The position numbers and the translations under genes were made by a program. Source: Candidatus Omnitrophota bacterium (GTDB taxonomy: Bacteria; Omnitrophota; Gorgyraeia; Aquiviventales; Aquiviventaceae). From it: a DNA stretch of 32,023 nt. The notes beneath the pieces are model-generated. The model did not search any database and was not told where the DNA came from. It worked only from the letters and a program-made list of their open reading frames with translations. Positions 292 through 29,100 of the stretch are shown piece after piece. The stretch is from assembly GCA_023247255.1 (NCBI GenBank), contig JAHFGV010000026.1, positions 1 to 32,023 on the forward strand, written 5' to 3'. Each line of letters opens with the position of its first letter. The stretch's first letter is position 1.

Positions 292-523
292 CGCTAATCC
301 TCCTGTTAGTTATGGCGGTTACGCCCCTGCCAGCACCAGCCGAAACTCCTCTGCCAGCGCTTCCAGCACCTGGTTGGCGTGCTCGGCTACCGCCGGCTGG
401 GGTGTTTCAGAAAGTCCGGGTAGTCTACTACTATGGTCATCCGTACGTAATAATCGCAAGACGCTTGTTCATCTCAAAAATGCCTGTCCCTCAGGTGCCT
501 GGCACTTCCTCAGTGCGATCGAG

Positions 524-708
524 ATTAGTGGCAGCGCTCACGTTTGTGTCATGAGTCATGTGTTATGTGTCATGAAAAAGCAGGAAATAAACAAGTATCT
601 CAAGCATGGCCAAAGGGCTCCTTTTGCTTTCCATGACTCATGACACATAACACATGAAACAGTCTCTCATGACACATGACTCATGAAACATGACACAATA
701 CTTAAGTC
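524..708. repeat. Fold-back/MITE-like element copy 1 (ATGAGTCATGTGTTATGTGTCATG arms, core 575-631)
   Basis: Inverted arms around a ~57-nt core shared with 3321-3486. Confidence 0.75.
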
Positions 709-738
709 AACGCGTTGGCTATTTTTGCAAAAGCCCAG

Positions 739-1293
739 TTAGTAGGCCCGTTCTTCTCCTCGTTTTGACTCACGGCTCGTCGAGCTCAGAGGAATGCGGT
801 TGTCATGCTCGTCATAGGTGTAGCGCGCCTTGCCACCCACTTTGTGGATGCGTTGGTCGACGACCCTAAGCTTCTCGCCCGTCGCTTTAACATCGAAATC
901 GAGGTCTAACAGATCGCCTGTCTTCTTGTCACGCATATCGGTGCAGGAATAGTACAGCGAGCCCGTCTTGCCAACCCGATCGTGCACCTGCACGAATTCC
1001 AGATTGCGCGTAGTTCTCGTTGCTGGATCTTTGATTGGAAATGCACCTTTCTTCCGTACGGTCCCTTGAACATAACTCTGGATCGTCTGACGAATCTGTT
1101 CAGCTGAGGGTTCGGCTTTCACAACTTGACCGCCATGCTCCTGCGTCGTCCCTCCGTGTTCTTTGGCTGCTGTTGGTGCGGTCGCCGTCCCACCATGCTC
1201 CTGGCCTCCATGTTCCGCTGCGCCTATAGAGATGGCCATGCCCAACACACTCACTCCGACGATCACAAGCCCAGTTACCACTCGACGCGTCAT
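739..1293 (-). CDS. Secreted protein with repeated EHGG motifs, unknown function
   Basis: 184 aa ORF; N-terminal hydrophobic signal; four EHGG repeats (AAEHGGQEHGG...KEHGGTTQEHGG). Confidence 0.75.
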   Translation of the reverse strand: MTRRVVTGLVIVGVSVLGMAISIGAAEHGGQEHGGTATAPTAAKEHGGTTQEHGGQVVKAEPSAEQIRQTIQSYVQGTVRKKGAFPIKDPATRTTRNLEFVQVHDRVGKTGSLYYSCTDMRDKKTGDLLDLDFDVKATGEKLRVVDQRIHKVGGKARYTYDEHDNRIPLSSTSRESKRGEERAY

Positions 1294-2330
1294 GTCGTCC
1301 TCCCCTGTTTAAGGTCCTTGAATTTGACCTCGACGCCCACATCCGAAAACACCCGTCCATCTACTTCAACGTACGGAGAGAAGAAAATGTTCACTGGCTC
1401 GCCCCTCTGTCTGGGCACAAGCCGAATATCCCGGCCTGTGCTGATGAGGAACCGGCTCGGATCACGCGCTCCGAAATAGTACTCAGCCAGCTTGGGATGC
1501 TTCCACGCCTCTGAGGCATCCACGGGCACCCATCCCTGAGCGTCCACATAGAACTCCGCCCAACAGTGATAGCCGGGGGTGACTCCTGACGGTTCCTGGG
1601 GGATCACGACGCCGATCTTGAACCGAGCCGGAATGCGCTCTGCCCGCGCCATCGAGATGAAGAGGGAATGGAAGTCGGTACAGTTGCCCTTGCCGAGCAG
1701 GCAGGCCCGGCGCGTATCGCCCCGACCCCAGCCGGGCACGGTCTTATCGTAGGCCATGGTGTGCCTGACGTAGTCGTAAATCCCCTTCGCCTGCGCAACC
1801 TTCGTCAACCGTCCAGCCGTCGCTTGCCTGGCTCTGGCGCGTACTTCCTCATCGATGATAACTAAGCCGCTGGGCTGAAGGGCCTGTTGGAATTCACGTG
1901 GGGTTGGCGGAGAATCGGCTTCAGCGGTTTCAGCACCGAAGAGTCTGGCGCGGTACTCGATCGCAATCTCCAGACGCCCAGGAATCGGAGGCGTCAGCAG
2001 CGCATGTAGGATGTCATTGTCGTAGTCAGGGTCTTGCGCAATGGTATAGGGAACCGGCACGCGCACGTCACGACGGATGATCTGTTGTTCCGGTCCTGTC
2101 TTCGCCAGCGGAATCCAGATGTGAACGACTTGGGCATCCTGTGGCAAATGATCAACCTCTGTTCGATACACGCACGTCACTTCACGTGCTGATCCAACCG
2201 CTCGTGATGCCGACGCGCTGCCGCGGCTTTCCAGTACAGCCAAGCCACCTCCCAACAATAACATCAGCACTATCCATCGAGAATGTTTGATGGCCACTGG
2301 TCCCACACGCATAAACACCTCCAGAAACAA
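1290..2330 (-). CDS. Transglutaminase-like superfamily protein (start may be internal, e.g. 2312)
   Basis: 346 aa; GKGNCTDFHSLFISMARAERIPARFKIG (Cys) and GYHCWAEFYVDAQGWVPVDAS (His/Asp) match transglutaminase-core motifs. Confidence 0.85.
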   Translation of the reverse strand: MFLEVFMRVGPVAIKHSRWIVLMLLLGGGLAVLESRGSASASRAVGSAREVTCVYRTEVDHLPQDAQVVHIWIPLAKTGPEQQIIRRDVRVPVPYTIAQDPDYDNDILHALLTPPIPGRLEIAIEYRARLFGAETAEADSPPTPREFQQALQPSGLVIIDEEVRARARQATAGRLTKVAQAKGIYDYVRHTMAYDKTVPGWGRGDTRRACLLGKGNCTDFHSLFISMARAERIPARFKIGVVIPQEPSGVTPGYHCWAEFYVDAQGWVPVDASEAWKHPKLAEYYFGARDPSRFLISTGRDIRLVPRQRGEPVNIFFSPYVEVDGRVFSDVGVEVKFKDLKQGRTT

Positions 2331-2663
2331 TGGGTCAGAAACGAGACTCGCGCTGGGGTCACTGATCCATCAGCGTCGTTGTCAGCCTGCAGCGGGATGG
2401 CAGCCAAGTTGTGCGTGGGCAATAGTAGTAGACCGTACAAAGGGGCGAGTTAATCCTCAGGGTGATTATGGTATGAGGAGTCCGCGAGCGCATGAGCAAA
2501 AGCGGTGTGGAAGCAATCGATCCTGAGATGTACAGAGGGCTAACCGCCAGCGGCGCGCTCTGGCGATGGAGCAAACGGAAGAACCAGGACACCAGATTGC
2601 AAAAACCGCATAGGCCCATCGTAGACTGCTCCTTCACGTTGGTCAATCTCACGACGTAGCAGG

Positions 2664-3281
2664 TCACACTCTCTGGAAACGGCAGTAGATGAACTGCTGC
2701 ACCGTGTGAAAGGGGGTGGGGTGTGCGTCCTGAAGCGCCTCAACCAACTTAAACTCCGGCAGTTCCCTCTGGAGAGTTTCAGGACTATATCGGACGACCT
2801 CCAACCCACTGCACCGCGGCGGTCCTTGTAGGCTGAACGTGGCTAAGATCACTTGACCCACCGGCGTCAGCGAGTCACACATGACCTTGAGGTAGCGGCG
2901 GCGCTGGTCGATGGAAGTCAGAAAATGAAAGAGCGCACGGTCATGCCACAGATCATAGCAATGGCTCGGCAGCGTCGCTTCGGTAATGTCCGCCTCGATC
3001 CAGTTGACCCTCCGGGCGCGCTCACCGAGTCTTGCCATCGACCCGGTCATGGCTCGCCCTGAGACGTCCAGCACCGTGAGGTGTTCGATCTGTCGATCGA
3101 GCAGATCGTCCACCAGCGTAGATGCTCCTCCCCCGACGTCAATCACCCGGCTGTTCCGAGAAAGACCCGCCCGTGCGAGCAGTTCTAATGAGACGTGCAG
3201 GTGAGGCGCATACCAACTTACGTCAGTCGGGCGCTTCTGCTGATAGATAGCTTCCCAATGACTCTTCGCTTCCATCGCCAA
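2664..3281 (-). CDS. Class I SAM-dependent methyltransferase
   Basis: 205 aa; VIDVGGGASTLVDDLL motif I and DLWHDRALFHFLT. Confidence 0.9.
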   Translation of the reverse strand: MAMEAKSHWEAIYQQKRPTDVSWYAPHLHVSLELLARAGLSRNSRVIDVGGGASTLVDDLLDRQIEHLTVLDVSGRAMTGSMARLGERARRVNWIEADITEATLPSHCYDLWHDRALFHFLTSIDQRRRYLKVMCDSLTPVGQVILATFSLQGPPRCSGLEVVRYSPETLQRELPEFKLVEALQDAHPTPFHTVQQFIYCRFQRV

Positions 3282-3320
3282 TCTTTACTTAGAGTCTGAG
3301 GTTTTGCAAAATGCAGCGCG

Positions 3321-3486
3321 GTTAGTGGCAGTGCTCACGTCTGTTTCATGAGTCATGTGTTATGTATCATGAGTCATGGAAAGCAAAAGGCGTACTTTGG
3401 CCGTGCTTGAGATGCCTGTTTATTTTCTGCTTTTTTCATGACTCATGACACATAAAACATGACACAGACGTGAGTACTGGGTTTTA
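3321..3486. repeat. Fold-back/MITE-like element copy 2 (core 3379-3436 inverted relative to copy 1)
   Basis: Terminal AGTGCTCACGTCTGT ... ACAGACGTGAGTACT inverted repeats and ATGAGTCATG... arms; core is the reverse complement of copy 1 core. Confidence 0.75.
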
Positions 3487-3521
3487 GGAACAGGACACAG
3501 CACGTGGGAAAATCTCTGGGG

Positions 3522-17270: not shown

Positions 17271-18149
17271 TCACCAATCCTGGTCCACATCGGGCTCTCG
17301 CGCTGGACCTTGATGCTCCTTCACCAGCGCTCCACGCTCTTCATTCTTGAGCGTATCGAGAATCCAAAGCGCTTGCTGTTGAGACATGTTCTGCGACTCT
17401 GCAACCGCCTGTGCACTTTGCTCAGATCCCTGCTGGGCTGGTTGTTGCCGTGCGGCTTGAGCCGGCTGTCCCTGTTGCTGTGGATCGGTCCCTTGCGCAG
17501 CTTCCATCGATGATTGAGACTCCGGCTCGGATTTCGATTCGGCAGAGGCGGCTTGTTGCTGTTGTTGCTGCGATTCGCCGGCTTGCTCGGTTTGCTGCTG
17601 AGATTGCGCCTGTTGGGTGGTTTCTGTCTGCGCTTGAGCGGATTGCTGATTCGCCTTCTGCTGCTGGACCTTCGCCGACTGCTGCTCCTGCTGCGTCTTC
17701 AATGCTTTCAGACGCTGTTCAACTAATTCGTAATTATACTTCGCATCCACATCCTTCGGTTCCTGCCGAATCGCGAACCGATAGTCTTCCAGCGCTTTTT
17801 GGTAGAAATCGACCGCTTGGTTGGGCGTAGCCTGTTCTGCGGCACGTCCCAGCCGGGAGTGTGCATTCCCCAGGTTGTAGGAGGCTCGGCCTTGGAGCGA
17901 TGAACCGGATGAGGCGACGGCGCTGCTCAGAGACTCCGCGGCTTTGTCGTAGTGACCCTGCTGATATCGCACCGTCCCAAGGTTGTAGTGCAGCGTTGGA
18001 TCGGTCGGTCGCTGTTTCAGCAAGCGCTCGAAGCGCTCAGCCTGAAAGTCTTGGGAAGCCTTGCGCTCATCGGCGTCGCTCGAAAGCGCTCCTCCAATCA
18101 TCAGCAGAGCGATAAGTATCCACCGCGTTAGTCTCAACCTACCACCCAT
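17271..18149 (-). CDS. TPR protein with Gln/Ser-rich tail (BatC-like)
   Basis: RLLKQRPTDPTLHYNLGTVRYQQGHYDKAAESLSSAV...; start MGGRLRLTRWILIALL at 18149, since upstream sequence is a hairpin repeat. Confidence 0.87.
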   Translation of the reverse strand: MGGRLRLTRWILIALLMIGGALSSDADERKASQDFQAERFERLLKQRPTDPTLHYNLGTVRYQQGHYDKAAESLSSAVASSGSSLQGRASYNLGNAHSRLGRAAEQATPNQAVDFYQKALEDYRFAIRQEPKDVDAKYNYELVEQRLKALKTQQEQQSAKVQQQKANQQSAQAQTETTQQAQSQQQTEQAGESQQQQQQAASAESKSEPESQSSMEAAQGTDPQQQGQPAQAARQQPAQQGSEQSAQAVAESQNMSQQQALWILDTLKNEERGALVKEHQGPAREPDVDQDW

Positions 18150-18237
18150 TGGAATTGTGGATTGTGGATTGTGGAATGCGGATTGAAAGATCGGATAATC
18201 CGCAATCGACAATCCACAATCGAAAATTCGAAAGTGG
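18150..18237. repeat. Inverted-repeat array of GGATTGTG words
   Basis: GGAATTGTGGATTGTGGATTGTGGAATGCGGATT...AATCCGCAATCGACAATCCACAATCGAAAATTC. Confidence 0.8.
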
Positions 18238-28312: not shown

Positions 28313-28397
28313 GGAAATTGTCGATTGTCGATTTTGGATTTTCGATTGAACGGCCGTCTTCCAATCGAAAATCCAAAATCGACAATCGAAAATTCCC
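28313..28397. repeat. 36-bp-arm hairpin repeat between convergent genes (terminator or repeat element)
   Basis: GGAAATTGTCGATTGTCGATTTTGGATTTTCGATTG / CAATCGAAAATCCAAAATCGACAATCGAAAATTCCC, 2 mismatches, 13-nt loop. Confidence 0.9.
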
Positions 28398-28413: not shown

Positions 28414-28495
28414 CCTGAGTTCAAGTTTCTAGCGCAACACCTGTATCCTGGTCTGACCCAGGAGAAAGGAGTTGCGCTAGAAACTTGAACTCAGG
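28414..28495. repeat. Perfect 25-bp inverted repeat at HEPN 3' end
   Basis: CCTGAGTTCAAGTTTCTAGCGCAAC (28414-28438) / GTTGCGCTAGAAACTTGAACTCAGG (28471-28495). Confidence 0.95.
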
Positions 28496-28777
28496 AAAGT
28501 AAAAAGCCGATGCCTCTTGACACAATGCGCGATATTGTTCGAGAGACGGTATCCAGGTGACGACTTCATCAAGCAAGAAACTTAGATTATGGCTTCGCTG
28601 TAATATCCAGCCTCGCGCGATGAGGAACCCTTTCAGGGCTTTCTCAATGGCCTGCTGCAAGTGAAAGGCAGCATCATCGGTATCCCCATATTCAAGGAAA
28701 CGAGGCACTCGCTGCAAGCCCTGTTGAGCTTTACGGAACCACTCGGAAGGATCGCGTGAGTCTCGTTCAGGCGGCAT
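28421..28777 (-). CDS. HEPN domain protein, apparently C-terminally truncated
   Basis: PSEWFRKAQQGLQRVPRFLEYGDTDDAAFHLQQAIEKALKGFLIARGWILQRSHNLSFLLDEV; normal sequence lost after FYFPE. Confidence 0.85.
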   Translation of the reverse strand: MPPERDSRDPSEWFRKAQQGLQRVPRFLEYGDTDDAAFHLQQAIEKALKGFLIARGWILQRSHNLSFLLDEVVTWIPSLEQYRALCQEASAFYFPEFKFLAQLLSPGSDQDTGVALET

Positions 28778-29100
28778 AAAGAATCTCACCGCGGTTAAAA
28801 ACTTCCTCTAAGAAAGGATCGCGCGCACGCTGCTTGCGGGTGATTTCTCCAGGGGTCATCACTATGGGGGAGAAATCAATACCCTTCACAACAAGGCTGC
28901 ACCAGTTGAGAAACCTCCGCCCATCGCCGATGAAACGGCTGATCCGTATCCTTAACGATCAGCAGATCCACATCGTTCTCCTTTGTTGGCTCTCCATAGG
29001 CCAAAGAGCCAAACAAAATGGTTCGCTCAGGGTGGTAGTTTTTCTTGAGCAACGCGACCACTTGATCAATGGCGGTTTGTAGTCGATAAGGCCTTTGCAT
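28767..29100 (-). pseudogene. MNT-type nucleotidyltransferase (HEPN partner), +1 frameshift
   Basis: MQRPYRLQTAIDQVVALLKKNYHPERTILFGSLAYGEPTKENDVDLLIVKDTDQPFHRRWAEVSQLVQP | shift | KGIDFSPIVMTPGEITRKQRARDPFLEEVFNRGEILYAA*. Confidence 0.85.

Follow-up and report, generated by a model that had tools for sequence, protein, structure and literature searches.

Inversions of 5–50 bp between hairpin-forming inverted repeats of 11–24 bp have been described as widespread in chloroplast genomes, in work cited in PMC12928735, and inversion of the Correia element has been reported in Neisseria gonorrhoeae by studies cited in PMC10969869 and PMC5874624. Among bacterial MITEs, BrickBuilt of Porphyromonas gingivalis contains internal tandem repeats and is present in 19 copies (PMC4596501). 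Hairpin-loop inversion is usually seen singly; here, about 100 copies with labelled ends were found in one genome, with both states represented at about 1:1. The family constitutes a natural replicate experiment, in which the frequency and the breakpoints of inversion at short inverted repeats can be followed in a bacterium without an obvious invertase.

Two copies of the element in the window

The window, which is the whole analysed stretch of 32,023 nt, contains two copies of the element (Table 1). The original prediction described a shared left flank and shared arms, with the core in + orientation in copy 1 and in − orientation in copy 2, and all of these parts are present. The flank TTAGTGGCAGYGCTCACGTYTGT lies at about 526–548 in copy 1 and at about 3321–3343 in copy 2, and the arm ATGAGTCATGTGTTATG has the same orientation in both. 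The left 56 nt (520–575 and 3317–3372) are 89% identical in direct orientation, and the 83-nt stretches 575–657 and 3353–3435 are 90% reverse-complementary. The arm motif was matched 10 times in the window, compared with 0.00 times in 100 shuffles. The likeness of the pair is far beyond chance.

In copy 2, the outer flank consists of TTAGTGGC and the terminal repeat CTGAGGTTTTGCAAAA starting at 3296, and the inner flank module CAGTGCTCACGTCTGT recurs inverted at the right (3464–3479). With the inner flank on both sides of copy 2, only the outer flank tells the ends apart in the pair alone. That this flank stayed put is settled beyond the window pair, by the genome-wide table of copies. Opposite insertion of the whole element, with palindromic ends imitating a flip, was plausible for the pair and was ruled out by the outer ends of 68 copies. 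A known RNA family was also considered, and the window had no Rfam match. A tRNA search of the window found none.

Table 1. Features of the two element copies in the window, with positions counted from its first nucleotide.
Feature	Position	Strand	Basis or remark
Copy 1 of the element, A-core-C form	518..738	+	sequence and family comparison
Copy 1, A-side terminal repeat			missing or degraded
Copy 1, end A remnant GATCGAGATTAGTGGCAGCGCTCACGTTTG	518..546	+	sequence, family comparison
Copy 1, A-side heptad arm TGTCATG AGTCATG TGTTATG TGTCATG A	547..575	+	family pattern
Copy 1, core in + orientation	576..631	+	
Copy 1, inner heptads and CAGTC spacer	632..664	+	in full-length copies, turn with the core
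Copy 1, C-side heptad arm	665..698	+	inverted with respect to the A-side arm
Copy 1, end C with terminal repeat	699..738	+	complement of CTGGGCTTTTGCAAAAATAGCC...
Copy 2 of the element, core in − orientation, A end at left	3296..3499	-	C-side terminal repeat missing
Copy 2, end A with terminal repeat CTGAGGTTTTGCAAAAT	3296..3343	+	
Copy 2, A-side heptad arm and one inner heptad	3344..3378	+	
Copy 2, core in − orientation	3379..3436	-	
Copy 2, distal heptad arm	3437..3463	+	inverted relative to 3344-3378
Copy 2, hybrid C end remnant	3464..3499	+	with inverted A-type inner module CAGACGTGAGTACTG

Copy number and anatomy of the family

The host genome of the window (G000), from an uncultured bacterium, is a draft MAG of 2.18 Mb in 64 contigs. 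Another genome of its family (G022) showed 300-nt identity, at two loci compared, with named contigs of the Candidatus Omnitrophota MAG nzgw324, which places the host in Omnitrophota. Allowing up to 3 mismatches, the core CTCAAGCATGGCCAAAG was matched 112 times in G000; the arm motif, with up to 2 mismatches allowed, was matched 290 times, compared with 0 matches for a reversed control. From these data, 98 distinct copies of the element were extracted. The element is about 190–325 bp long (190–324 bp in 57 complete copies of known orientation), within the range of about 50–500 bp taken for MITEs, and has no coding capacity. From end A to end C, the order is A-arm, core and C-arm; each arm comprises about 4 heptads, those of the C-arm being inverted. 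Ends A and C are different sequences that together form imperfect terminal inverted repeats, with CTGRGSTTTTGCAAAA at both ends (185 matches in the genome with up to 1 mismatch). End A reads CTGAGGTTTTGCAAAATGC...TTAGTGGC...CTCACGTCTG, which in the complete element is CTGAGGTTTTGCAAAATGCATCGAGATTAGTGGC...CTCACGTCTG, with an extra B module in some copies; end C is ...GTCAACGCGTTGGCTATTTTTGCAAAAGCCCAG, with the inward reading CTGGGCTTTTGCAAAAATAGCCAACGCGTTGACCGAGTGTTGTGTC...GAGGATTG. Each end carries an inverted arm of about 4 heptads (TGTCATG/TTTCATG/AGTCATG/TGTTATG), and the core of about 60 nt between the arms reads AAAAGCAG...CTCAAGCAYGGCCAAAG...CTTTCC, accompanied by inner heptads and a CAGTC spacer.

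Exact target duplications (TSDs) of 6 bp were observed in 26 and of 7 bp in 6 of the 58 complete copies. Shuffled flanks led us to expect about 0.6 and 0.07, respectively, or about 0.7 together, compared with the 32 of 58 observed. Both orientation classes contributed exact TSDs (13 of 28 A-C and 19 of 29 C-A copies). Only 2 of 94 cores were located inside an ORF of at least 120 aa, compared with 200 of 332 random points, which indicates intergenic placement. The terminal repeats, TSDs, copy number, short length and intergenic sites make up the anatomy of a MITE, and the element family is non-autonomous and MITE-like.

Five DDE_Tnp_1 loci were searched for an autonomous partner, and none carried the terminal repeats within the stretch fetched. 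A REP/RAYT element was also considered. REP/RAYT palindromes are moved by a Y1 transposase without target duplication. Y1 transposases are present in the genome, but the terminal inverted repeats and the 6–7-bp TSDs do not fit this class. The Y1_Tnp profile (PF01797) gave 8 matches over the cut-off in G000 (L195–L200), with no link to the element here, and 4 of the 9 reported places were on contig C43.

The terminal repeat was also identified without the element interior in a few short sequences, one of about 70 bp, and other short sequences carrying it (CTGAGGTTTTGCAAAATCCGAGG..., CTGGGGTTTTGCAAAAATACTTCG...) were found at L181 (~2602), L182 (~2547), L187 (~2091) and L179 (~2588). This distribution suggests that one transposase moves several non-autonomous families sharing the terminal repeat. 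A nested insertion was observed in L177 (~2529–2612), where the A end of one element lies within the C end of another. Additionally, TTCAAGTTTCTAGCGCAACACCTGTA, the 3' end of one and the same gene, lies immediately next to heptad arms or remnants of the element in the window (28415–28440) and in L036, L076, L078, L087, L091 and L185. In the window, this sequence is the end of a 122-aa ORF (28421–28789), a putative HEPN-type gene.

Core orientation relative to the ends

Each copy was classed by its outer ends after the core had been set in + direction. Both ends were recognisable in 68 copies, with 36 arranged as C-core-A, 32 as A-core-C and none with like ends (A-A or C-C). For each of three core segments of about 64 nt, identical sequences were identified in both orientations (L007 versus L023/L050; L017/L073 versus L058/L070; L074 versus L029/L044/L089). 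In the maximum-likelihood tree of the 68 cores, which was built on 64 columns and in which most forks lack resolution, at least 11 orientation changes were counted, 7 of them forced by well-supported branches. The evidence of the identical cores stands without this tree. When orientation labels were shuffled on the tree, the mean was about 20 changes compared with the 11 observed, so that flipping is recurrent yet slow relative to amplification, with the lineage signal kept. For instance, the TACGCC haplotype is nearly all C-core-A. Furthermore, a second, unrelated core (GGAACGACNGCAGATATNGGAAGT) was found at 7 places between these heptad arms, likewise in both orientations; examples are L203, with A at left, and L204, with C at left and A-type at right.

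It is well supported, from these comparisons, that the core has been turned round many times between the inverted heptad arms. The inversion between inverted arms that had been proposed from the window pair is thus borne out by the 32 and 36 copies, the identical cores in both orientations, the at least 7–11 changes and the second core; tabulating core against ends in the genomic copies gave both orientations, and not one fixed orientation in all the others. Inversion in place at a single locus is what we infer from this pattern. Duplicated insertion sites with opposite cores were sought among the copies and none was usable; L087 and L091 share a gene flank, and each is without one end.

Arms, breakpoints and predicted folding

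Whichever the orientation class, the usual start of the C-side arm is TGTCATG TTTCATG AGTCATG TGTYATG, and a common pattern of the A-side arm is T[GT]TCATG AGTCATG TGTTATG TGTCATG, with frequent variants. Each end therefore keeps its arm and heptad order irrespective of class, and the inverted unit consists of the core, the inner heptads and the CAGTC spacer. In L049 and L058, the CAGTC spacer lies on the other side of the core; the inversion implied is smaller, and its breakpoints differ. L016, L039, L069, L077 and copy 2 of the window have A-type inner modules at left and right, an arrangement indicative of template switching, conversion or similar non-reciprocal events.

When the A-arm and C-arm of the full element were folded as single-stranded DNA, a 22-bp stem was predicted (z −5.4), and the window copies gave z values of −6.55 and −6.42. 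The hairpin-prone arms envisaged from the pair are supported by these values of −5.4 to −6.6. As expected for hairpin-mediated small inversion, the inverted arms are predicted to form a stem round the inverted segment.

Distribution and related heptad repeats

In the 392 sampled genomes of the class, a search for the core returned nothing beyond arm-like pieces, and the core pattern had 0 matches in GTDB contigs and 0 in IMG/VR. G000 contains the exact terminal repeat 128 times; of the 391 other genomes of the class, 2 contain it, each a single time. As judged from these matches, the element is confined to this Omnitrophota species among the genomes compared.

Heptad hairpins of a like kind, with other loops, are common in Omnitrophota. 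The hairpin pattern had 42 matches in GTDB contigs, more than half of them in Omnitrophota as counted from record titles. Hairpins of the form (TGTNATG)n-loop-(CATNACA)n with varied loops were identified in many Omnitrophota MAGs; some MAGs of Fibrobacter, Chloroflexi and other groups have them too (L117, L121, L127, L134 and L135–L176). Other genomes of the class contain long arrays of heptads in direct tandem (CACATGACACATGACACAGG... and ACCCATGACTCATGACCCATT...; L119 and L120). In the window, fold-back repeats of a different 7-nt unit (ATTGTCG / ATTGTGG) are located at 28313–28397 and 18149–18232, with 36-nt arms that are 94% and 86% complementary and loops of 12–13 nt. Heptad-periodic hairpins seem to be general in this genome, and the wider survey points to their being a recurrent feature of Omnitrophota genomes. 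A literature search found no paper on these elements or on heptad hairpins of Omnitrophota, which is weak evidence of absence.

Proposed mechanism and alternatives

We consider it probable that the family is a MITE-like element in which pairing of the arms flips the core, with both forms amplified in trans and the flips occasional and not regulated. The inverted heptad arms would pair, either by folding into a hairpin or cruciform while the DNA is replicated or by recombination over short homologies in one copy or between copies. The core would be turned round by a strand switch or crossover within the arms, and a transposase acting in trans would then amplify both core orientations. The flip may take place within one copy, by hairpin or fork-level template switching, between copies, or both. 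The flips are probably occasional evolutionary events and not a regulated switch, and they probably serve no function in themselves. Such a history suggests that MITEs may stay mobile while their interior is turned and exchanged.

Exchange of cores between copies is the alternative that survives best, and we hold it as a tentative explanation only. Here, the cores would be swapped as cassettes by recombination or gene conversion at arms pairing either way, and not turned in place. Copies with identical ends but different cores are known (L029/L042 and L037/L069), end A is weakly correlated with the core (Mantel r 0.20, p 0.002) and end C is not (r 0.04), and the same arms hold two unrelated cores. 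However, the small variation among the ends makes the linkage test a weak one; exchange still needs arms recombining in inverted register, which makes it a variant of the same mechanism; and chromosome rearrangements would follow from crossovers between copies far apart. The weak linkage of ends and core, together with the identical ends around different cores, suggests that cores also move between copies, and such exchange could explain part of the mixing. A broader version, in which the heptad arms are recombination arms, the core is a cassette both flipped and swapped among the ~100 MITE copies, and kindred heptad hairpins are recombinogenic phylum-wide in Omnitrophota without a conventional invertase, appears rather unlikely.

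We regard it as very improbable that the heptad arms are the target of a site-specific invertase, in the manner of classical and possibly phase-variable invertons. Fixed inverted arms do surround a short segment, both states are present at about 1:1 between copies, and the genome encodes two tyrosine recombinases. These were the only two proteins found in a PF00589 profile search of the genome; one adjoins a topoisomerase-like ORF, and both look like XerC/XerD and are putatively XerC and XerD. A PF00239 profile search of the genome gave no match to a serine recombinase. The breakpoints also appear variable (L049 and L058), and orientation retains lineage signal. Promoter-like sites were sought in the window and none lay within either element copy, which leaves a regulatory switch without positive evidence. 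A dedicated invertase for the arms is unlikely. The invertible switch suggested in the original prediction is not supported: orientation tracks core lineage, the window copies have no promoter-like site, and a serine resolvase was missing from the genome search. A fast phase-variation switch was rejected for the same three reasons, orientation not being randomised.

The possibility that the flips are assembly artefacts seems slighter still. In a draft assembly of 64 contigs, with high copy number, palindromic inverted arms and about 100 near-identical repeats, some junctions could be misassembled. However, orientation clusters with core haplotype, TSDs match in both classes, and the arms keep the heptad order proper to their own end, a pattern that random misjoins would not yield. 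The matching TSDs and the clustering speak against random misjoining, and some local misassembly may remain as a residual concern. Least probable of all is a single ancient inversion giving two master elements that were amplified separately, since the clustering of orientation on the core tree and the almost wholly C-core-A TACGCC haplotype, which would suit it, are opposed by the identical cores in both orientations, the changes forced by well-supported branches and the flipping of the second core.

Comparison with known systems

Like BrickBuilt, the element is small, non-autonomous and intergenic, with inverted ends and an internal array of short tandem repeats. In contrast to BrickBuilt, it has 7-nt repeats that form two inverted arrays with a core in between, this core occurs in either orientation, and the copy number is about 100 compared with 19. 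The Correia repeat enclosed elements (CREE) of Neisseria, as far as they are described in the citing articles, are likewise high-copy MITEs with inverted repeats and a reported inversion; the sequences are unrelated, and in the present family the core turns relative to two different ends and can be traced across many insertions.

The small inversions of chloroplast genomes, as summarised in the citing article, also involve a short segment that flips between short inverted repeats forming stem-loops, whereas the element described here is in a bacterium, lies inside a multicopy mobile element and has longer arms built of heptad arrays. Invertons share the segment bounded by inverted repeats in two orientations, which here are distributed 32 versus 36 between copies and not within one locus; they differ in that no dedicated recombinase was found in the genome searches, a promoter was not seen in the window copies and orientation is not randomised. 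The family combines known traits: it is a MITE, its interior is turned round between short inverted arms, and the ends of its roughly 100 copies are marked.
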